A stretch of DNA of 19,373 bases. It comes from a bacterium (GTDB taxonomy: Bacteria; DRYD01). This document shows positions 1 to 19,352 of this stretch, one piece after another. The stretch's first letter is position 1; each line of letters begins with the position of its first letter. The notes beneath the pieces were generated by a model. That model was not told where the DNA came from, did no database searches, and worked only from the letters and a program-made list of their open reading frames with translations. The position numbers and the translations under genes were made by a program. The DNA lies in assembly GCA_030549815.1 (NCBI GenBank), contig JAUQQQ010000006.1, positions 1-19,373 of the forward strand, written 5' to 3'.

Positions 1-28
1 TTTCTAATTTACCCTTTCTATTAAAAAT
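1..28 (-). CRISPR. Possible terminal CRISPR repeat cut by the window edge
   Basis: Read on the minus strand, the first bases of the window begin with ATTTTTAATAG and end with AAATTAGAAA. That matches the general shape of type I-B repeats, which open with GTTTTTA-like bases and finish with an ATTGAAAC-like crRNA handle. A last C would fall just outside the window. The adjacent AT-rich stretch at higher coordinates is where a leader would lie if the array ran leftward. Only one copy is visible and no repeat-spacer periodicity can be seen inside the window, so this is an inference from resemblance plus the cas genes about 1.1 kb away. Confidence 0.3.
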
Positions 29-536
29 ATTGGACAAAATATAGGGGGTATCCTTCTTTTTTTTGAGGAAAATTTCTGTCGATGTCCGGTAGGTAAAAAA
101 ATAGGTCAAAAATGCCAAAAAACGATGTTCTTTCCTAATAGTATCAATATCCCGTCGATCCCATTTTCTATATAAAAAAATTTAAATTTGTCAATATTTT
201 TTATATATCTAATCATTGATAACAATCAATAAAATTGAATTTAACAAATTTTTAACAAAAACGATAGTATCTAAACGAGTATTACCAAGTATTCGTCGAT
301 GTGGTCTTTTTTAAAAATTTGTTTCAAAAAATTGATTTATATCAACAATAAAATCAAGTTTTTCGACCTCTTTTTTACAATTTTTTTACAATTACATAGA
401 TACTTTTTATTATTATAAGTTTTTAGTAAATGATGTAAGAATTTTCATAAAAGGGCTTTGAAGTATCGTGGATAGGAATTGGAAGTGTAACCATGTTTAT
501 ATTTTTGCATCAGCTCATCCAAAGATATCGCTGAAC
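29..536. other. AT-rich gene-free stretch, possible CRISPR leader
   Basis: No convincing coding region is seen on either strand. The stretch is strongly AT-rich, with A and T runs and a short direct repeat of the type (T)nACAA near 369-392. The word GTCGAT recurs near 79, 154 and 295, and ATAGTATC near 138 and 264, without regular spacing. If an array starts at the left edge, this would be its leader, which is normally AT-rich and carries the promoter and integration signals. I see no array, tRNA or rRNA here. Confidence 0.3.
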
Positions 537-704
537 TTAATAGTCAAATATATAAAAATTATGATTGTGACCTCCTCTCCTCGTTAAAACGAGGAGCTTC
601 CTCCTAAAGCTTACACGAATATAGGAGTTAGACCTCAGTGCAGAGGCTTCTACAGGCGTCAGTTCGGGCTGGTCCAGCTCTACCACCCTTGAGGCGGGTG
701 ACAC
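537..704 (-). pseudogene. tnpB: Decayed 3' end of an IS200/IS605-family tnpB
   Basis: On the minus strand an open frame ending in TAA at 537-539 contains VELDQPELTPVEASAL (roughly 683-636). This resembles the loosely conserved C-terminal tail of TnpB (OrfB of IS605), where a TPVE-type motif is common. The catalytic RuvC and zinc-finger parts are absent: upstream the frame runs into an AT-rich stretch and a stop at 735-737. The segment is much richer in GC than its surroundings, fitting foreign origin. I read it as the truncated remnant of a transposon beside the CRISPR locus. The family call rests on the tail motif and the hairpin end only. Confidence 0.5.
571..704 (-). ncRNA. OmegaRNA-like structured right end of the tnpB remnant
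   Basis: This segment is compact and self-pairing. CTCCTCGTT at 577-585 pairs with AACGAGGAG at 588-596 (9 bp, 2-nt loop). CCTC at 633-636 can pair with GAGG at 643-646, and CACCC at 684-688 with GGGTG at 696-700. IS200/IS605 elements end in such hairpins, and the RNA covering the tnpB 3' end is the TnpB guide (omegaRNA). With TnpB gone it is probably inert or borrowed by a copy elsewhere. Expression cannot be judged. Confidence 0.4.
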
Positions 705-764
705 TATACGTATATTATATTCCTTTTTTTTATATTATACTCTTTTTTTGAAAAATTTCAAGCT

Positions 765-930
765 ATTTATCTCCTACTTGTAGAGGTGTGAGACTTCTGG
801 CTTTATAGATTGTTGTTTTCAGCCATTCATCTCTCCTTTACCCGAAGGGAATCTTCACCTACCCCAGGGAGGCTTTACCTGCCTGCCGGCAGGCTTCGCC
901 TGAAAAGGAAAGCTTTCTTGCTTGGGTTTC
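765..930 (-). mobile_element. Second GC-rich structured segment, possible truncated IS200/IS605 right end
   Basis: A GC-rich island lies in AT-rich surroundings. On the minus strand the part near 857-827 can be read GEDSLRVKER, followed after a stop by MAENNNL. The sequence then ends in AGAAGTCTC and half of a hairpin (CTCACACCTCTAC, about 792-780) whose partner arm is replaced by unrelated bases. TnpB C-termini and their RNA tails have this general form. It also carries the perfect palindrome GCCTGCCGGCAGGC (881-894) and the palindrome GAAAGCTTTC (908-917). It could instead be a dispersed palindromic repeat of the genome; no intact gene is present. Confidence 0.35.
881..894. repeat. 14-bp perfect palindrome GCCTGCCGGCAGGC
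   Basis: The sequence equals its own reverse complement over 14 bases and is made almost wholly of G and C in a locally AT-rich region. It is flanked by further complementary bits (AGGC at 870-873, GCCT at 898-901) that could extend a cruciform or RNA hairpin. Such palindromes are often dispersed in many copies, but no second copy was noticed in this window. Confidence 0.6.
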
Positions 931-1015
931 GTAAATTTATGTTTTAATATGAAAAAAACAAGAATATTTCTTAAAAAGAGCTGTGTAGTGTGTTCGGAAA
1001 GCTGTATTCAGTTTC

Positions 1016-1041
1016 AGAGCTTTTAAAAAGAGCTTTTAAAA
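1016..1041. repeat. Tandem 13-bp direct duplication
   Basis: The 13-mer AGAGCTTTTAAAA occurs twice head to tail (1016-1028 and 1029-1041), downstream of the cas2 stop on the side of the decayed mobile DNA. A partial third match, AAAAAGAGCT, lies at 973-982. It is probably a slippage duplication in low-complexity DNA. Confidence 0.7.
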
Positions 1042-1079
1042 ACTTCTTTGTTAGAAAACTAAAATTTCTTTTGTTAAAA

Positions 1080-1118
1080 TAGGGGAATTGAGGAGTTAAG
1101 GAGAGGGTGGAGAATTTT
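1080..1118 (-). terminator. C-rich, G-free tract after cas2, candidate rut site
   Basis: On the minus strand, which is the cas mRNA sense, this tract just past the cas2 stop has no G at all over about 39 bases and many C residues. That composition is the classic feature of Rho-loading sites. No GC-rich stem followed by a T-run was found between cas2 and the window edge, so Rho-dependent ending of the cas transcript is a reasonable inference. Only composition supports it. Confidence 0.25.
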
Positions 1119-1123
1119 CGTAT

Positions 1124-1387
1124 CTAATAGAAAATATCATTTTGATTTTTGTCTATGCCTAAAATTTCTCTTGATGTGTAAAATGATACTTTGAAAATGT
1201 ATATTATAACTGAATCTTCAGAAGGATTTATAGTGTTTTGCAATTCAATTTTTAGTTTTTCTAATGTTGCTGGTGTGATTTCTCCTTCGAATACTGAATT
1301 CTGAACCCATTTTAGGTACTTTCTGCATATTTTCAGAACTTTTTGAACTCTTTTTTCTCCTATGTCATACACGAGTATCACATTCAT
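1124..1387 (-). CDS. cas2: CRISPR-associated endonuclease Cas2
   Basis: Cas2 is the small ferredoxin-fold dimer that bridges two Cas1 dimers in the spacer-integration complex. The 87-residue protein has the family's normal size. It begins MNVILVYDIGEKRVQKVL, with the conserved Asp at residue 8 after the first beta strand and the (K/R)-rich first helix. The later WVQNSVFEGEIT segment (residues 27-38) is the typical second strand region. It starts 6 bases after the cas1 stop and is the last gene of the operon. There is no strong Shine-Dalgarno site before the ATG, so translation probably depends on coupling with cas1. Assignment is secure from sequence and context. Confidence 0.95.
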   Translation of the reverse strand: MNVILVYDIGEKRVQKVLKICRKYLKWVQNSVFEGEITPATLEKLKIELQNTINPSEDSVIIYIFKVSFYTSREILGIDKNQNDIFY

Positions 1388-1393
1388 TATTTT

Positions 1394-2386
1394 CTAAAAT
1401 GGATAAATAAATGGGGTATAATCTTCCTCTCCTATGATATGCTTTTGTAATTTATAAATTTCCAGCCTTATTAGTTCTCTATATGATACGTTTCTATTGA
1501 GTTTAGGATGATTGATCGTTGATTGTAGTTTTTCTTCAAACTCTTTGATAAATATTTTTGCTCCTTGTTCATTTAGTGTTATTCCGTTTAATAATGTTTC
1601 AAAATGTTCTTCTTTTATAATTTTTTTATTTATGAGTGAAAAGATTACTCTATCAACGATTATGGTTTTAAATATTTCTGCTATATCAAGATTTAGGCTA
1701 AATCTTCTAAAATTTGATTCATGCAGATATCCTATTCTTGGGTCCAATTGAGTTTTGTAGATTTCTGATAATGCTGTTGTATATAAAAGGGAATTTCCAA
1801 AGCTTATTAATGCATTTAATTTATTTTTAGGTGGTTTTTTTGTTCTTTTCTCAAATTTGAATTCTTCATTCTGTAATATCTTATCAAATGTTTTGTAATA
1901 TATTTCTCTTACGTTTCCTTCAATTCCCATTATTTCTGAAATTGATTGAACATCATTAATTTTATTTATCAGTAATTCGATCGTTTTTATTTCTTCTTTA
2001 AAGTTTCTGTCTCTGTTATTGTAATAATAGATATTTTTCAAAATATTTTGTATTGCTCCGTAAAAAATTAATTTTGCTATGTTTATTCTTTTTTGGTTAT
2101 CTATGTAGTGTTCGACTTGTTTGACTATAATGTAACCTGAGTTTAGATGTTCTCGGGGGTAAAATGATCCTATGTAGTAATCATAGAAGTTGAAGAAATG
2201 CAGAATAATTTGATTGGATGTCAAAAATTCAAGAGCTCTTTTGTTTATTGTTATCTCGCCGAATATATATATTTCTTTTGTATTTTCGACAGGTATATAG
2301 TTTTTATTATTTTCTGATTCCAAAAATAGGGTGTTATCTTTTCTTTTTAGTTCTCCATGTGAGAACAAATAAATTGTTTTTTTCAT
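1394..2386 (-). CDS. cas1: CRISPR-associated integrase Cas1 (type I-B)
   Basis: Cas1 is the metal-dependent integrase that inserts new spacers. The protein is 330 residues from the ATG at 2386, which is preferred over an ATG 36 bases upstream. The later start gives the usual MKKTIYLFSHGELKRKDNTL beginning of the family, has TGGAG about 9 bases before it, and lies just past the cas4 stop instead of overlapping it. The catalytic residues are visible: Glu156 in MGIEGNVRE, His222 in GYLHESNFR and Asp234 in LNLDIAEIFK. The N-terminal beta domain (about 1-80) and helical C-terminal domain are both complete. It lies between cas4 and cas2, the standard I-B adaptation module. Confidence 0.95.
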   Translation of the reverse strand: MKKTIYLFSHGELKRKDNTLFLESENNKNYIPVENTKEIYIFGEITINKRALEFLTSNQIILHFFNFYDYYIGSFYPREHLNSGYIIVKQVEHYIDNQKRINIAKLIFYGAIQNILKNIYYYNNRDRNFKEEIKTIELLINKINDVQSISEIMGIEGNVREIYYKTFDKILQNEEFKFEKRTKKPPKNKLNALISFGNSLLYTTALSEIYKTQLDPRIGYLHESNFRRFSLNLDIAEIFKTIIVDRVIFSLINKKIIKEEHFETLLNGITLNEQGAKIFIKEFEEKLQSTINHPKLNRNVSYRELIRLEIYKLQKHIIGEEDYTPFIYPF

Positions 2387-2391
2387 ATTTA

Positions 2392-2892
2392 TCAACTCCA
2401 GCACATATCTCTGTATCCACAATTTTTACAAAATGGTATTTTTTTAGTTTTTGGTGGTGTTTCATTTTTCACTATTTCTTCTATTTCTTTTTCCATTTTT
2501 TCTAATTTTTGTTTTATTTCTTCTGTCAAATTCAATTTTATATTCTTTTTTTCTTTTGGTATGAGTAGGATACCTTCTGCTTCTATACCGAGTTCTTGAA
2601 GTTTTTTTAGGTAAAAATAAAGCTGAAACATGCAAGATTCTAAATTTTTTGAACTTTTCTTTATTTCTCCCACTATTAAATGGTTATCTTCTTTTTTTAC
2701 GATATCTATTATCATATTTTCTATTACTACTTCTTTTCTTTCGTTTTTATAGTATTGTTCTGATATAACTTTTCCTATTTGTATATTTGGATCATCTTGA
2801 TTTGGGACAATATTTCTTGACATATACCAAACTTGTTTAGGGCATATAAGATAATACCATACCAGAGTTGCGTATACTTTGAATTCTTTCAT
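2392..2892 (-). CDS. cas4: CRISPR-associated exonuclease Cas4
   Basis: Cas4 is a RecB-like Fe-S nuclease that helps select and trim prespacers with the correct PAM. The 166-residue protein has four cysteines placed for an iron-sulfur cluster: Cys17 in LICPKQVW, and Cys155, Cys158 and Cys164 in FCKNCGYRDMC. RecB motifs are seen as Asp63 (IIDIV), Glu76-x-Lys78 (GEIKKS) and Gln90...Tyr94 (QLYFY). The usual His of motif I (G-x-x-x-H-E) is Ser44 here (GKVISE), which may weaken metal binding. Its ATG overlaps the cas3 stop as ATGA, and it is followed by cas1 after 5 bases, so it belongs to the adaptation module. Confidence 0.92.
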   Translation of the reverse strand: MKEFKVYATLVWYYLICPKQVWYMSRNIVPNQDDPNIQIGKVISEQYYKNERKEVVIENMIIDIVKKEDNHLIVGEIKKSSKNLESCMFQLYFYLKKLQELGIEAEGILLIPKEKKNIKLNLTEEIKQKLEKMEKEIEEIVKNETPPKTKKIPFCKNCGYRDMCWS

Positions 2893-5282
2893 ATTATTAA
2901 GAAATCGTCATTTTCTGTAATATATCCTGTTTCTATATCATAGTAATGCGGTAAGTCATCTATACTTATAAAACCCATTGAAGAATTTTCTTTATTGAGA
3001 AATGGTGGTAAATTTTTTATTCTGTATGGCAATGAAATAACATGTTCAAAAAACTCGGATTTCATTTTTTCGAATTCTTTTTTTCTTTCGAAAACGTTTT
3101 TTAATGATAGTGCTTTTTGGTATTTTTGCCATATTTCTTGGGCTTGTTTATCTACCTGTATGAAAATCATTATTTCGGGATATTCTTGATCTATTAATTT
3201 AAACTTGCTTATTGAATTATCATCGTTTGAGTAGTATTTTAATTGGGATATTGATTGAATAAATTCGTCTGATTTGTTTTGTGATACTTTCAATTCTTGG
3301 TAATACTGTTCCAATAATTCATAGAATTTTTTTTCATTTATTATTTTATATTTTTTCAATATTTCTTCTGTTTTACTTAATAGTGTTGAACTGTATATGT
3401 ATGAGGAGTATTTTACATTTTTTTCGTTTACTAATTTAAATATTTTAAATACTCCTTTTTTTGTGAAGTTTCTATTGCATCTACCGGCGGATTGATTTAA
3501 GCTGTCAAGTGGTGCAAGATCTCTAACGACTACATCAAAGTCTATATCGACTCCTGCTTCGATTAGCTGGGTTGATACCACTATCCTATATTTTTTCTGT
3601 TTTATTTCGTTTATTCTTTGCATTCTGTGTTTTGGTATCACTGATGTAGCTAAGAATGTTTTGTCTGTATTTTTTATCATTTGATAAAACTTTTTTGCAC
3701 TTTTTATTGTGTTAAAAATGAATAAATATGTTTTGTTATCGTTATTTATTTGTTCTTCAAAAATTTGTAATAAATTTTCAATTGTTTTTGGTTCTAAATC
3801 TATTTCTACTTCGAACCTATCGAGATTTTGGATATATAATTGTGGTTTAGATAAAAACTCTACTTTTTCAAATATATAGGGATAGGTTGCTGTTGATACA
3901 ATACAATATGAATCCAGTGTTTCTGTAAGAAAGTTTATTGTTTTTTCTATTAATTTCCAATATTTAGGGTCTATTGCTTGAATTTCATCTAAAATTATTA
4001 TACTATTACATAGTTTATTTAGTTTTTTTATGCTGGCGTTTGAATTGGAAACAAGAGTATGAAAAAGTTGGACGAACGTTGTTATTACTATATTTGATTC
4101 CCAGTCTTCGATCAAAAATTTTTCTTGATCAAAATTTAATAAATCTGTATAATTTCCTTTTTCTTCTAATTTCTTTTTAATTTCTTCAAAACTTTTACTT
4201 AATTCTGTAAGAGAATGATATTTTAGTACGAATTGGGGATCTATTATTTGGGAAATGGTGTTAAAACTTTGGTCGATTATGGATAAAAACGGTAAGCAAT
4301 ATATTATTTTGGGTTTCTTGAATTTTATTTTATCATATATTTTCAAAGCTACGGAAAAATTGATTAAAGTTTTACCTAAACCAGTTGGTAGGTTGACACA
4401 TAAAATTCTGTTGCCATTTCCCCATACCTGCATTAATTTTTCAATTGTTTCTCTATATGCTTCATATCTCATCTTATTTATTTTATCATTCTTTTTTATT
4501 TTTTCAATGTGTTTATCGATTACTTGCGAAAAGTCCTGTATTGATTTTGAAAAATCATATATTGAGGATACTTCTTCTAAAAGATTTATATCTGAAATTA
4601 TAGCTTCTGTTTTATCTGATTCTATAAGTATTGAAAATATTAAATTTAGTAAAAAATAAAGATCGAACGAAGAATTTTTCTTATTTTCATCCACGAGTTT
4701 TCTAAAGAAAATCCTAAAAGAATGATCTATTTTTATATTGGCATATTCTTTCAGTTTTTCTTTCGTTATTCTAAAATCGAGATATTTTTGTAATTCTAAG
4801 CAAAGAATTTCGAATTTACTTTGATCAATACTTTCCAATTGTTTTTTTAATAATTCTTTTTTATTTTCTATTTTTGTTGGTTCTTCATCCAATGGATCGG
4901 ACAAATTTGAGTGATGATGTTTTATCACAAAGTATATCAAAAATTCTAATAATGGATTATTTATTAATTCTTTGGCTATGAAGTAGGCAAAATAGGCTGA
5001 GAAGAAACTGTGTTCTTTACATTTTTGTTCAACTTTATTTCCATGCAAATACTGTTGGAAGTAATTTGTTGATTTTCCTAAGTCATGAAGTAAGCAAATT
5101 ATTTTTATAGCTTTTTCAATTTTCTCAAGATTTAAAGCATAATCATTTTTTGTTTGTATGTTTTTTATGATATTTTCTATAGGTTTTTTTATTCTATTGA
5201 ATTTTTTTTCTGCAATGATTAAGGTATTGATAGAGTGGTCTTCGAGATATTTGTTGGGATGTGAAAATAATCCTGATTTCAT
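2889..5282 (-). CDS. cas3: CRISPR-associated helicase-nuclease Cas3 with N-terminal HD domain
   Basis: Cas3 unwinds and shreds target DNA after recruitment by Cascade. At 797 residues it is a full-length HD-helicase fusion. The HD nuclease domain spans about 1-250, with His8, the HD pair at 66-67 (LLHDLGKS), His91 and the HHH at 122-124. The SF2 helicase domain follows: Walker A LPTGLGKT at 298-305, DEAH-type box DEIQ at 432-435, motif III STAT at 463-466, and motif VI QSAGRCNR in the second RecA lobe. All key residues appear intact, so it should be active. Its ATG shares four bases with the cas5 stop (ATGA), and the same overlap links it to cas4. Confidence 0.96.
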   Translation of the reverse strand: MKSGLFSHPNKYLEDHSINTLIIAEKKFNRIKKPIENIIKNIQTKNDYALNLEKIEKAIKIICLLHDLGKSTNYFQQYLHGNKVEQKCKEHSFFSAYFAYFIAKELINNPLLEFLIYFVIKHHHSNLSDPLDEEPTKIENKKELLKKQLESIDQSKFEILCLELQKYLDFRITKEKLKEYANIKIDHSFRIFFRKLVDENKKNSSFDLYFLLNLIFSILIESDKTEAIISDINLLEEVSSIYDFSKSIQDFSQVIDKHIEKIKKNDKINKMRYEAYRETIEKLMQVWGNGNRILCVNLPTGLGKTLINFSVALKIYDKIKFKKPKIIYCLPFLSIIDQSFNTISQIIDPQFVLKYHSLTELSKSFEEIKKKLEEKGNYTDLLNFDQEKFLIEDWESNIVITTFVQLFHTLVSNSNASIKKLNKLCNSIIILDEIQAIDPKYWKLIEKTINFLTETLDSYCIVSTATYPYIFEKVEFLSKPQLYIQNLDRFEVEIDLEPKTIENLLQIFEEQINNDNKTYLFIFNTIKSAKKFYQMIKNTDKTFLATSVIPKHRMQRINEIKQKKYRIVVSTQLIEAGVDIDFDVVVRDLAPLDSLNQSAGRCNRNFTKKGVFKIFKLVNEKNVKYSSYIYSSTLLSKTEEILKKYKIINEKKFYELLEQYYQELKVSQNKSDEFIQSISQLKYYSNDDNSISKFKLIDQEYPEIMIFIQVDKQAQEIWQKYQKALSLKNVFERKKEFEKMKSEFFEHVISLPYRIKNLPPFLNKENSSMGFISIDDLPHYYDIETGYITENDDFLII

Positions 5283-5995
5283 ATGAAAACAATGTTTTCT
5301 CCTGTTTCCTTTACTTCTATGTATTTTTCAGGGATACATTTTATGGTATCAGCGTTTATTTCTGCTATTATATCTTTAAATGATAGTATTTTTCTTTCCA
5401 CTGTTATATTTAGTGGCACTCTTTCTTTGATATATTTTTTACCTTCTTCAAATTTTATGTATTTTATTTTTTCTTCTGGAATAATTGAATGTATGTCGAT
5501 TTCATTTTCTGTAATATTTTCTGATGCTTCGAAGGTTCCTATATATTTTACTTTTGCTATCAATTCACTTAATCCTAAAGAGATTGTGTAAAAATTTTTG
5601 TTCTCTTTTAGAAAAGTTTCTAATTTTTCTGTATTTTCGTCAATTTTCTGTATGTATATTCTGAAGTGGGGGTTTTTTAGAAATTCGAATCTTATTTGTG
5701 TTCGGTCCTTTATAAACCAATTACCATCCTTATTTATTTTTATGTTATCCTTAGTATTTACCAAGTTTATGCCCATTCTTGTTTTGTTTATGGGATTTAT
5801 TATTCTTTGGGAGAATTTTATGGTTTGGTAGTTTATGATTTTAAGGTATTCATTTTTATCTATTCCTATTATTGCGGCGATTATTCCATACAGTGCAGTT
5901 GGTGGTATGAAAGAGAATGTTAAGGGTGAAGTTGTTGTCCAATATTTTCTAAAGTGCCCATAATCTCCGAATATATCAAACACTATTATCTCCAT
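5279..5995 (-). CDS. cas5: Cascade subunit Cas5 (type I-B, Cas5h/Cas5b)
   Basis: Cas5 caps the 5' handle of the crRNA and joins the Cas7 backbone to Cas8. The 238-residue RAMP protein has the hallmark N-terminus: IFGDYGHFRKYWTTTSPL (about 9-26) followed by FIPPTALYGIIAAIIG (29-44), the glycine-rich segment shared by Cas5h proteins. The start at 5995 is preceded by GAGGAGAG at a suitable distance. The gap to cas7 is 24 bases and contains an AT-only hairpin; the 3' end overlaps cas3 by four bases. In type I-B the processing nuclease is Cas6, so Cas5 is expected to be non-catalytic. Confidence 0.93.
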   Translation of the reverse strand: MEIIVFDIFGDYGHFRKYWTTTSPLTFSFIPPTALYGIIAAIIGIDKNEYLKIINYQTIKFSQRIINPINKTRMGINLVNTKDNIKINKDGNWFIKDRTQIRFEFLKNPHFRIYIQKIDENTEKLETFLKENKNFYTISLGLSELIAKVKYIGTFEASENITENEIDIHSIIPEEKIKYIKFEEGKKYIKERVPLNITVERKILSFKDIIAEINADTIKCIPEKYIEVKETGENIVFI

Positions 5996-6008: not shown

Positions 6009-6032
6009 TTTTAATTTTATTAAAAATTAAAA
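6009..6032 (-). promoter_or_regulatory. AT-only hairpin enclosing the cas7 stop codon
   Basis: TTTTAATTTT (6009-6018) and AAAATTAAAA (6023-6032) form a perfect 10-bp inverted repeat with the 4-base loop ATTA. On the mRNA strand the loop contains the cas7 TAA stop (6020-6022), and the cas5 Shine-Dalgarno region follows directly. There is no GC stem and T-run, so a simple terminator is unlikely. A role in transcript processing, or in making Cas7 more abundant than Cas5, is inference. Confidence 0.5.
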
Positions 6033-6928
6033 TTTTCTATTAGAATTTCATTACCTTCTATTTCTTTACTCAATTTTAGTTCGGGTATGTATTTAATTTT
6101 TACTTTTTCAATCTTGTCTTTTGCTTCTGTAAGCTTTTCAATTAATCTATCGGTAGTTAAAATATATTCATCAATTTTTCTTATTTCTTCGTCTTTTTTA
6201 TCTGATTTTATTTCTATTAGATGGTCTAAATTACCTATTTGATAGAATGTTCCAGGTTTGTAGTATATAGCCATAAGCATAACTGATCTGTGTCCGATTT
6301 TGGATGTTGTTGCTAATGAGTTGGTGCCGTTCCACATGGATTCAAATAAAATGTCAATATCCTGGTAGGTAAGATTAATGTTTTGAGTTTCTGCAGCTTT
6401 TTCATTAATAACTCCATAGAATGAGATAAGAGAGTAGGGGAGTATGTATTTGCTTGTCATTGTTCCTTGTTGTTTTCCTTCTCCTGAAGGCATGACAGTT
6501 GTTCCTTTAATATACTGTAAATCTACTTTATGCAAGGATCTGCCAAATTTAAATTGGACAGGTCCTGTAAGAGCTATGGTATTTTTTTCTACTGCTATAG
6601 TACATCCAAATAACCTGATATCTATAAACTTTTCTAACAAACTTTCCTTATTTGAATTTCCTCCCAGCTCTTTTATTTTTTCTTCTTTGCTTTTTAACTC
6701 TTTATTTTCTTTATTTTCTTTTCTTTCCTCTTTAACGAATATGTCCATTTTTTTATATTCTAAAATGAAATCTCTTATTGTTCTTTTTAATCTTACATCG
6801 GTTACTATGTTGTAATTTGTGCTATAATCTATTCTTGGTTTATTTTCATCTAAAGGATCTCCATTAGGATTATTGAAGGATACATCGTAAAGGAATAGGA
6901 TTTCTATCCTTTGATTTACTTTAGTCAT
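6020..6928 (-). CDS. cas7: Cascade backbone subunit Cas7 (Csh2)
   Basis: Cas7 polymerises along the crRNA to form the Cascade backbone. The 302-residue protein has the Csh2 signature NNPNGDPLDENKPRIDY (about 19-35) and IVTDVRLKRTIRDF (41-54), and TGPVQFKFGRS at 121-131. The start at 6928 is chosen because GGAGGTGAT lies four bases before it; a GTG nine bases upstream lies inside that Shine-Dalgarno site. Start and cas8b stop overlap in ATGACTAA. An unusual highly charged Lys/Glu stretch at residues 59-88 looks like a flexible insertion in the thumb or web region. All else matches the family. Confidence 0.95.
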   Translation of the reverse strand: MTKVNQRIEILFLYDVSFNNPNGDPLDENKPRIDYSTNYNIVTDVRLKRTIRDFILEYKKMDIFVKEERKENKENKELKSKEEKIKELGGNSNKESLLEKFIDIRLFGCTIAVEKNTIALTGPVQFKFGRSLHKVDLQYIKGTTVMPSGEGKQQGTMTSKYILPYSLISFYGVINEKAAETQNINLTYQDIDILFESMWNGTNSLATTSKIGHRSVMLMAIYYKPGTFYQIGNLDHLIEIKSDKKDEEIRKIDEYILTTDRLIEKLTEAKDKIEKVKIKYIPELKLSKEIEGNEILIENFNF

Positions 6929-7298
6929 TGTTATCACCTCCGTAGATGATGTCTTTAATTTTTCTATACAAACTCATACCTGTTGCAAAATAGAAATTCA
7001 TTTCTTCATTTGACATTTCCCATTTTGATTTTAATAATTTTTCTGATGCTTCAGGATATAAAATTTCTTGAATTTTACTATAGTAATCATATTCTTGGAA
7101 TTTATTAATAATTTGTGGTAGTAAATCCATAAAATCTTTTTTTGTCATTCTTAATGATTTTAATTTGTTAAAGAAGGGAGTATTATTAAGTCTTTTTCTT
7201 TGTTCTTCTAATAGTAGTCTTGTTAATATTCCAAGGATAAAAATCCCCTGTTTATCCTCATTATCCAACTTTAGATCGCTGTAAATTTTATCGAGCAT
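6921..7298 (-). CDS. cas11: Cas11b small subunit from an internal start within cas8b
   Basis: Within the cas8b frame, the bases coding Gly-Gly-Asp form a perfect Shine-Dalgarno sequence GGAGGTGAT (7302-7310), followed by TAT and an ATG at 7298, an ideal distance. The product would be the last 125 residues of Cas8b, MLDKIYSDLKLDNEDK onward: predicted all helical, charged, and of the size of Cascade small subunits. In type I-B, I-C and I-D systems Cas11 is known to be made by internal initiation within the large-subunit gene, and no separate cas11 gene exists here. The same 9-mer serves cas7 and hsp20. Translation is inferred from sequence. Confidence 0.75.
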   Translation of the reverse strand: MLDKIYSDLKLDNEDKQGIFILGILTRLLLEEQRKRLNNTPFFNKLKSLRMTKKDFMDLLPQIINKFQEYDYYSKIQEILYPEASEKLLKSKWEMSNEEMNFYFATGMSLYRKIKDIIYGGDNND

Positions 7299-8696
7299 AT
7301 AATCACCTCCTACTTCTTCTTTAAATTCTGATTCTTCTTTGTAAGAAAATAGATTATCTAAATCTATCAAACACAGATTTATGAAAAATAAAAAATTGGA
7401 AATAGAATCAAAAACTAAAGTATCAAAATCATAAGGTCTATCATTTAATTTTTGCACAGAATTTTGCAGATTAAGAATAAAATGTTTAATCAATAAGTTT
7501 TTGTTTATCTTTTTCAATTTAAATATTGATTCTAAATAATCGAGGAAGAATTTTTTAGATTCTATCGTTAAACTACCTTGCTTTGTTATAAAGAATTTTT
7601 TCAGTTTTGATAAATAATAATGGTAATCATAGTTTTTAAAGGCATATTTTTCTATTATTGTTTCGGTTTTATGCTTAGATTCGAATATTTTTTTGAAATT
7701 TGAAGGTGGGATATCTTCTACTAAAAGTAGTATCCTTTCAGCACTGTTGTCCTCTTCATAAAACAATAGATAAAAGTAGAGAAAATTTTTGTCCTTTAAT
7801 AAGAAAAGTATTTCATCTTGTTCATTGGTAATTCTTTCTGCTTCTTTTAGCTCTTGTTTTTTATTTCGTAATTCCATAATCGTTTGTATTTCTTCATAAG
7901 CTTCTTTTTTAGCGAAAATAATTGAAGGGATTAAATAGTATTTTATACCTTCCATCGAGAAAGATAGTTTATTTTTTAGGATTTCCTTTGATTTTTTTAA
8001 AATTTCATAGCAATCAAGACATACCGGGTAATTTTTCCAACTCTTTTCCTTTTGAAAATTATTTATTTGTGACCCTGCTATGAATCCTGGTTTATCAACT
8101 GTATAGAATTTAAAAACATTATTTGTTTGGTCTGAAATATTTTCTTTTTCTTCTTTACAGAATGAACAGATAGATTTGTTTAAATTTTCTTTTAATTTAT
8201 CTTCTTCTATTTTTTTGCTAATATTTCTTATAATTTCAATTTCTCCAGGATATTTGTATTTTCCATCGTGGTATATTTTTATTCCGAGGAAAATTTTCTG
8301 ATCTTTAAACATTTTGTTTGATTTAATTTGCTTTAATTCTTCTTTTATTTTATCGATTAATTTTTCGTCTAATTGTTGTAAGATTTGTTGAAAATCTATT
8401 GTTTCTTTTTTCATTTTTTTACTTTCATTAAATATTTTTTCAATGAATTTTTTTATTTTTTCGGTTGTTTTTTGTGGTTCTGTTAAGGGTGCGAATAATG
8501 CTGGTTTATTTCCTTTTGAATCCCCTTGAATATATAAATTTTTGTTTTCATTTATATAGTCTTCAACGGACACAAAAACTTCTTTTTCTTCTGGATTTGC
8601 ATTAATGAAGATTATTTTCCCTTCTGTTGATGCGGTTTGGATATTTTCATTTTGATTTAGTAAGAATTTAGTGAACTCGAAAATTTGTTCAATCAT
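6921..8696 (-). CDS. cas8b: Cascade large subunit Cas8b (Csh1)
   Basis: Cas8b recognises the PAM and helps recruit Cas3. The correct start is the ATG at 8696, giving 591 residues. It has AAGGAGGG six bases upstream and overlaps the cas6 stop by 8 bases, whereas an ATG 45 bases further upstream lies deep in cas6 without such a site. A zinc-finger of Csh1 type is visible as Cys177-x2-Cys180 (ICSFCKEE) and Cys226-x2-Cys229 (VCLDCYE). The rest is rich in Lys, Glu and Ile and poorly conserved, as usual for this family. The C-terminal 125 residues are helical and correspond to the small subunit, which also seems to be made separately from an internal start. Confidence 0.9.
   Translation of the reverse strand: MIEQIFEFTKFLLNQNENIQTASTEGKIIFINANPEEKEVFVSVEDYINENKNLYIQGDSKGNKPALFAPLTEPQKTTEKIKKFIEKIFNESKKMKKETIDFQQILQQLDEKLIDKIKEELKQIKSNKMFKDQKIFLGIKIYHDGKYKYPGEIEIIRNISKKIEEDKLKENLNKSICSFCKEEKENISDQTNNVFKFYTVDKPGFIAGSQINNFQKEKSWKNYPVCLDCYEILKKSKEILKNKLSFSMEGIKYYLIPSIIFAKKEAYEEIQTIMELRNKKQELKEAERITNEQDEILFLLKDKNFLYFYLLFYEEDNSAERILLLVEDIPPSNFKKIFESKHKTETIIEKYAFKNYDYHYYLSKLKKFFITKQGSLTIESKKFFLDYLESIFKLKKINKNLLIKHFILNLQNSVQKLNDRPYDFDTLVFDSISNFLFFINLCLIDLDNLFSYKEESEFKEEVGGDYMLDKIYSDLKLDNEDKQGIFILGILTRLLLEEQRKRLNNTPFFNKLKSLRMTKKDFMDLLPQIINKFQEYDYYSKIQEILYPEASEKLLKSKWEMSNEEMNFYFATGMSLYRKIKDIIYGGDNND
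7302..7310 (-). promoter_or_regulatory. Internal Shine-Dalgarno site in cas8b
   Basis: GGAGGTGAT is fully complementary to the standard 3' tail of bacterial 16S rRNA. It lies inside coding sequence (Gly-Gly-Asp codons of Cas8b) with its GGAGG core seven bases before an in-frame ATG. It is identical to the site of cas7 at 6933-6941 and of hsp20 at 19344-19352. Confidence 0.8.
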
Positions 8697-9477
8697 AATT
8701 TCCCTCCTTTTGGTTTGCGTGTATAATTTTAATACATCCAAATCCTTGACTGTTTTTGTTTCCCATTCCTGCGTTAAGCGCTACGAAATACAAATGTTCT
8801 GGAAGAAATACCTCGAAAATCCCATGGTATGCTTTTATTACTGTGTTCTTATATTTTACAATGTTTTCTTTGTATTTTATTGGTTTAATGTAGTAATTAC
8901 CCCCTGTTTCTTCTTGGTTTAAATTTTCTGTTGTAATATTTGTTTGGGGATATGATTTATACTTTCTTATTAGGTTCTGTATTATTAGATTAGAGAATTC
9001 TTTTTCGGATGGACTATAAAAATAGGTTTTTTTAGAGTTATTAATCTTAACTGTGCTGTATATAGTAATAGGTGATAGGGTTTTTATTTTTGTTTTTCCT
9101 GAAATTTGGTTATTTTTTTCAACTTCTATTGAATGTATTTTTAGTTCCTGTTGTCCTAATTTGACATTTTGCTTCTTTATAAGATTTAGTGCTAATTCTT
9201 GAATCATTTTGTCAATCAAGCTACAAACTACTATGGAAATTCTATTTTTGAAAAGAAAATATTTTTTATCTTTTTCAGGCTGACTATATGAAAGTATTCT
9301 TGAGAAGGTGAAAAGTTTGAATTTTCTTTTTTGGTATAAAAATCCAGAGTTGTGAATTAATTCTGCTGTATCTACATTAAGGTTGTCATAAATAAATGCT
9401 TGAACAATTTCATTGTATTCTATTGGTATTTTTATGTAATCATTCTTTATGTTTTCAAGATGTATTTTTATTCTCAA
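8689..9477 (-). CDS. cas6: CRISPR RNA-processing endoribonuclease Cas6
   Basis: Cas6 cuts the repeat in pre-crRNA to leave the 8-nt 5' handle. The 262-residue protein has IPIEYNEIVQAFIYDNL (about 17-33) and then LIHNSGFLYQKRKFKLFTFSR (40-60), in which His42 is the expected catalytic histidine. The C-terminal glycine-rich RNA-binding loop is NAGMGNKNSQGFGCIKI (about 235-251). The start is a TTG at 9477: an in-frame TAA lies at 9481-9483, so nothing upstream can be used, and GGTGGT stands just before it. A TTG start implies modest translation. It is the first gene of the cas operon, and its stop overlaps the cas8b start by 8 bases. Confidence 0.92.
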   Translation of the reverse strand: MRIKIHLENIKNDYIKIPIEYNEIVQAFIYDNLNVDTAELIHNSGFLYQKRKFKLFTFSRILSYSQPEKDKKYFLFKNRISIVVCSLIDKMIQELALNLIKKQNVKLGQQELKIHSIEVEKNNQISGKTKIKTLSPITIYSTVKINNSKKTYFYSPSEKEFSNLIIQNLIRKYKSYPQTNITTENLNQEETGGNYYIKPIKYKENIVKYKNTVIKAYHGIFEVFLPEHLYFVALNAGMGNKNSQGFGCIKIIHANQKEGNYD

Positions 9478-18861: not shown

Positions 18862-19338
18862 TTATGAGATTTTAACTTTGTGTCCTTGTGGATTTGAGGT
18901 TGTTAATGGGAGAGTAATTCTCAAAACGCCGTTTTCATATTTTGCATTAACTTGTTGTGTATTAACTGGGAATGGGAGAGAAACTTGTCTGTAGAAGCTT
19001 CCAAATGGGTATTCATACATATAGAATGTTGGGGTATTATTTTCTCCCCATGGGCTCTTATAGGTTCCACTTATTGTTAATGTATCTTCGGTTACATTAA
19101 CTTCTAATTGGTCTTTGTTTAATCCAGGAACGAAGCATTCTACGAATAGTGTATTGTTTTCAACCCACATATTCATTGGGGGTAACCAGGTCCATGTTGG
19201 TGTAGATGTGGTTGTTGAAGAAGGGGTAGAGAGTCCGAAAACTTCTCCCATTAAGTTTTCTACCAAGTTGTGAATTCTTTCGAGTTCAGATAACATTGAT
19301 CTTCTTCCTAAAGGTCTTCTTTCTCTGAGTGTTAACAT
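18862..19338 (-). CDS. hsp20: Small heat-shock protein, Hsp20/alpha-crystallin family
   Basis: Small heat-shock proteins hold unfolding proteins as large oligomers without ATP. In the 158-residue protein an arginine-rich N-terminal arm (1-35) leads to a Ser/Thr/Pro linker (38-50), then the alpha-crystallin domain: MWVENNTLFVECFVPGLNKD (57-76), LEVNVTEDTLTISG (78-91), and the signature YENGVLRITLP (134-144). The usual C-terminal I-x-I/V oligomer motif appears only as VKI at the very end (155-157). GGAGGTGAT (19344-19352) precedes the ATG, predicting strong translation. The promoter lies outside the window; a strong shared terminator follows the stop. Confidence 0.93.
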   Translation of the reverse strand: MLTLRERRPLGRRSMLSELERIHNLVENLMGEVFGLSTPSSTTTSTPTWTWLPPMNMWVENNTLFVECFVPGLNKDQLEVNVTEDTLTISGTYKSPWGENNTPTFYMYEYPFGSFYRQVSLPFPVNTQQVNAKYENGVLRITLPLTTSNPQGHKVKIS

Positions 19339-19343
19339 ACCTT

Positions 19344-19352
19344 ATCACCTCC
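19344..19352 (-). promoter_or_regulatory. Shine-Dalgarno site of hsp20
   Basis: GGAGGTGAT lies five bases before the hsp20 ATG. It supports the chosen start and shows that this organism uses the full consensus at strongly expressed genes. Confidence 0.85.

Follow-up and report, generated by a model that had tools for sequence, protein, structure and literature searches.

Does the cas8b gene of this type I-B CRISPR operon encode one subunit of the Cascade complex, or two? An earlier note, made from the DNA letters alone, had proposed that translation of a Cas11b small subunit begins inside cas8b, in its reading frame and behind a perfect Shine-Dalgarno (SD) site. In this study, we examined that proposal in the window, by which we mean the whole stretch of 19,373 nucleotides that was analysed, as well as in the surrounding genome and among relatives of the gene. 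Judged from these sequence comparisons, the C-terminal fifth of cas8b very probably constitutes a nested second gene that would make Cas11b through initiation at Met467. The mechanism itself is an already known one; what is new is its quantitative conservation at the RNA level across the Cas8b1 branch.

The host gene and its operon

The host gene (6921..8696, on the minus strand, as are all genes of the operon) encodes a type I-B Cas8b of the TM1802/Csh1 family (Cas8b1), 591 amino acids in length. It matches PF09484 with an E-value of 3.9e-103 and TIGR02556 with 235 bits against a cut-off of 157, and both TIGR02591 and the PADLOC Cas8b model agree with this assignment. The 125-residue part under study, taken alone, still matches the C-terminal end of the Cas8b family profiles. 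The operon is of type I-B and has the order cas6-cas8b-cas7-cas5-cas3-cas4-cas1-cas2. Profile matches above cut-off identify cas6 (8689..9477; TIGR01877), the type I-B cas7 or Csh2 (6020..6928; TIGR02590), cas5b (5279..5995; TIGR02592), cas3 with its HD and helicase parts (2889..5282; TIGR01587 and TIGR01596), cas4 (2392..2892; TIGR00372) and cas1b (1394..2422; TIGR03641), the start codon of the last being uncertain, while cas2 (1124..1387) is inferred from its position after cas1 and its sequence. The putative cas11b forms the in-frame 3′ part of a cas8b of type I-B, with the I-B cas7, cas5, cas3 and cas6 adjoining.

Two further features of the operon deserve mention. Next to cas2 (window 1-1123) we see no CRISPR array, despite the full adaptation set in the operon; since the contig starts at window base 1, an array may have been cut off by the assembly. 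Just downstream of cas2, positions 554-687 (minus strand) give a weak match to the Rfam HgcC RNA (28.7 bits against a gathering score of 50), perhaps the relic of a structured element.

An internal start site in cas8b

On the minus strand, GGAGGTGAT occupies positions 7302-7310 and is followed by TAT and by an ATG at 7296-7298 in the frame of cas8b. This ATG is Met467 of the 591-residue Cas8b, and the open frame from it to the cas8b stop (6921..7298) would give a helical product of 125 amino acids and 15.04 kDa. The GGAGG core of the SD ends 7 nt before the ATG, and its duplex energy of -17.8 kcal/mol is the strongest among the operon starts tested. Site, spacer, start codon and product length lie exactly where the earlier note had placed them, and the identical 9-mer does precede both cas7 (6933-6941; ATG 6928) and hsp20 (19344-19352; ATG 19338), as it had reported. 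The cas7 copy lies within the 3′ end of cas8b, the two genes overlapping by 8 bases, and shares its codon phase with the internal SD (window 6921-6941); it is read as Gly-Gly-Asp, hence the Cas8b C-terminus GGDNND. Around the internal ATG, RNA folding is unremarkable: the local value is -5.3, and so is the mean for the gene. An internal promoter giving a separate cas11b mRNA was considered and rejected, as no consensus site is prominent and promoter-like sites are fewer than in shuffles.

The 9-mer is rare by chance, three copies being found in the window against 0.04 expected from shuffles. GGAGGTGAT-N2-7-ATG is found at 19 sites across the genome (1.59 Mb), against two for a reversed control pattern. 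Seventeen of the 19 are ordinary gene starts, one of which belongs to a truncated copy, and their upstream open frames do not exceed 29 codons. Another (L078) is a chance match of 6 codons, and the cas8b site is the only one deep in a long open frame, with 494 codons upstream. The start of hsp20 (a gene at 18862-19338 of the window) has a truncated duplicate nearby, at G000:C10:19563 (L092), which shares its SD and first 12 residues and is open for just 77 codons.

Conservation of the signal among relatives

By an alignment-based scan we found 69 loci, from about a dozen or more phyla according to their record titles; a protein-only scan gave none. Removing duplicates, along with two loci interrupted by runs of N, left 68 usable genes, the window's included. 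At the homologous junction, 67 of the 68 carry a strong SD (duplex of -8 kcal/mol or lower) together with a start codon, and 58 reach -10 kcal/mol or lower. Control stretches of equal length from the same genes reach these two thresholds in 73 (6.6%) and 20 (1.8%) of 1109 cases, respectively, and of the ATGs elsewhere in cas8b (70 genes) 4 in 653 attain -10. The homologous start codon is present in all 68 genes, as ATG in 59, GTG in four and TTG in five, and the SD core ends 5-10 nt upstream of it in 63 of 67. In each of the five nearest relatives, this position carries an ATG behind a strong SD.

Such an arrangement could in principle follow from the protein sequence that is encoded there. 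We therefore substituted synonymous codons throughout the region, following the codon usage of the gene concerned, and re-picked the best start, which gave a null mean of -7.8 against the observed -13.1 (z -15.1); for 37 representatives below 60% identity, z was -11.8. The SD core occurs in each of the three codon phases (46, 19 and 2 genes), insertions and deletions occur beside the SD-containing codons among near relatives, and the residues encoded across the SD region, VGGDYM in the window, become SGGGKM, EMEVKDM, EKEEINM and QEVIGM in near relatives. Since the SD stands in different codon phases, it is the RNA signal and not the protein that is conserved, and on these sequences synonymous recoding cannot explain its conservation. 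The homologue alignment that the earlier note had suggested as a check thus finds SD and start codon kept beyond protein constraint, and homologues lacking both the SD and the Met, which it had named as telling against its proposal, are absent among the 68.

These results bear on three other ways of explaining the site. The SD and ATG might be coincidental, the product of low-complexity coding (Gly-Gly-Asp or Glu-Glu) that happens to resemble an SD; the residues encoded are indeed Gly-Gly-Asp, and the same 9-mer encodes GGD again at the C-terminus of Cas8b. Set against the expected number of copies in the window, the marking of the junction in 67 of 68 genes, and the contradiction by both the synonymous null and the SD codon phases, we give this explanation next to no credence. 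A pause of elongating ribosomes at the domain boundary, aiding folding of the C-terminal domain with no separate protein made, would suit the location of the site exactly at the edge of the helical domain. A pause requires no start codon, however, whereas one is present in every gene and at a regular distance from the GGAGG core in nearly all, and such optimal sites elsewhere in the genome mark real gene starts; we regard a pause as highly improbable. Finally, a free C-terminal fragment could arise by proteolysis of Cas8b, as was once proposed for the I-B systems of C. thermocellum and M. maripaludis (cited in PMC11899642), and Cas8b fragments have been observed in other I-B systems. This would leave the conservation of SD and start codon beyond protein sequence unexplained, and we consider it even less probable than a pause. 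Internal initiation at Met467 remains the reading that we prefer.

One gene of the 68, L074, has no SD at its internal start and keeps the ATG. In this locus (L074:3776-4165, from a Candidatus Calescibacterium sp. SKYB43 record), the ATG stands in the A-rich context AATAAAAACACAAATATG, and the SD of cas7 is strong. Apparent natural splits of cas8b and cas11b in L064 and L065 coincide with runs of N in the assemblies and were set aside as no evidence; the split in L008 was likewise rejected as a natural separation of cas11b, lying far upstream within the gene.

Predicted fold of the C-terminal domain

An AlphaFold2 model of the 125-residue domain (from a 65-row alignment) has a pLDDT of 93.6, a pTM of 0.88 and seven helices. 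These begin at residue 2, which would place Met467 at the edge of the domain. A Foldseek search against the PDB gave no significant match (best E 2.2). On realignment of the 227 best Foldseek chains, the top 12 rows were all type I-C or I-A small subunits or Cas8c C-termini, with Z between 6.8 and 5.1, the first unrelated chain following at 4.6. The best match was the I-C Cas11 8dex_J (Z 6.8; 104 of 117 residues at 3.8 Å), with residue 1 of the model aligning near residue 2 of this natural Cas11. The solved I-B complex 8H67 was absent from the 227 realigned chains, and searches with Cas8b and Cas11b profiles against PDB sequences returned nothing meaningful. The structure comparison that had been suggested along with the alignment thus points to Cascade small subunits as the best match, and the similarity of the predicted fold lends support, not proof, to the Cas11b assignment, a Z near 6 being moderate for an all-helical protein. 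A domain-profile search for a standalone homologue of this family found only the cas8b C-terminus, in a genome that is about 90% complete.

SD strength across the operon

The internal SD of the window (-17.8 kcal/mol) is followed by those of cas7 (-16.4), cas8b (GGAGG, 8703..8707; -13.3), cas5 (-8.7) and cas3 (-6.4). The medians over relatives, where starts were picked by SD strength for every gene, are -12.9 for the internal SD, -12.2 for cas7, -11.9 for cas8b and -7.2 for cas5, the internal SD being stronger than that of cas5 (p 4e-9) and that of cas8b (p 0.014). The copy numbers used for comparison, one Cas8, seven Cas7, one Cas5, one Cas6 and three Cas11, are those of PMC11096372. The order of the SDs is as would be expected for multi-copy Cas11 and Cas7 and single-copy Cas5, and only weakly so for cas8b. 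We rejected the idea that the energies form a full copy-number ladder, which fits cas5 and not clearly cas8b, the SD of the latter being only a little weaker.

It is conceivable, at somewhat under an even chance in our estimate, that the internal SD across the Cas8b1/TM1802 branch is a selected and tuned device that sets the ratio of Cas11 to Cas8. This is suggested by the retention of the SD although codon phase and encoded residues vary, and by its similarity in strength to the SD of multi-copy Cas7, far above that of single-copy Cas5. If it were so, the lineage of L074 would need another route to its small subunit.

Proposed mechanism

We propose that translation would begin at two codons of the operon mRNA, the cas8b start and Met467. 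The former would yield the 591-residue large subunit, whose last domain is predicted to have the small-subunit fold, and the latter, behind an optimal SD, would yield additional free copies of that domain as Cas11b. Judging from the solved I-B and I-C complexes, several copies of Cas11b would lie along the belly of Cascade, next to the C-terminal domain of Cas8b, and would hold the DNA strand that is displaced as the R-loop forms. That this operon starts Cas11b internally, as the earlier note had put it, is supported by the conservation of SD and start codon and by the predicted fold. Its expression is inferred, as are its incorporation into Cascade, the number of copies there and its function. 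Points against an internally started Cas11b are the missing SD of L074, the non-significant Foldseek result, the moderate Z on realignment, and the failure in E. coli of the Thermotoga maritima site discussed below. If our reading is correct, plain gene calling, here and in nearly all relatives seen, would overlook a subunit on which the complex depends.

Comparison with known systems

Internal translation of Cas11 has been published for types I-B, I-C and I-D (PMC11899642, PMC10212523, PMC11096372), and the premise that related systems make their small subunit in this way is borne out by the literature (PMC11899642, PMC11096372, PMC13199841). The closest solved fold is that of type I-C Cas11c (PDB 8dex and 8g9s; Cas8c C-terminus 7kha), with which the N- and C-termini match; it too is translated internally, in cas8c, and differs in subtype, with 12-14% identity. 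In Haloferax volcanii, as in the window, Cas11b has an in-frame start inside cas8b, which was there shown experimentally, and the protein is required for full interference (PMC11899642). It differs in being archaeal, in its size of 28.9 kDa and in its weak SD-like GGATG (PMC11899642).

In the I-B system of Synechocystis PCC 6714 (PDB 8H67), Cas11b is likewise identical to the C-terminal domain of Cas8b and smaller than 15 kDa; it is made from an internal ribosome-binding site and is present in three copies in the complex (PMC11096372). The two differ in their Cas8b, which belongs to the Cmx8/Myxan variety in Synechocystis and to TM1802 in the window.

The type I-B1 system of Thermotoga maritima has a Cas8b of the same family as the window (PF09484 is named after TM1802) and a cryptic Cas11 of about 15 kDa from the 3′ end of cas8b1 (PMC13199841). 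Its Cascade retains Cas8b1 only if Cas11 is present, and on reconstitution Cas11 had to be supplied as a separate gene. The internal site is described as suboptimal and was non-functional in E. coli; for the Cas8b1 branch, a native demonstration of internal translation was said to remain necessary (PMC13199841). In contrast to that site, the SD of the window is close to perfect and should therefore work in E. coli. Our comparison makes it very likely that members of the Cas8b1 branch natively translate Cas11 from an internal start, and it offers a site strong enough for a test in E. coli. This may have practical application, as anyone moving a thermophilic I-B1 system to another host would have to supply Cas11b or keep its start.
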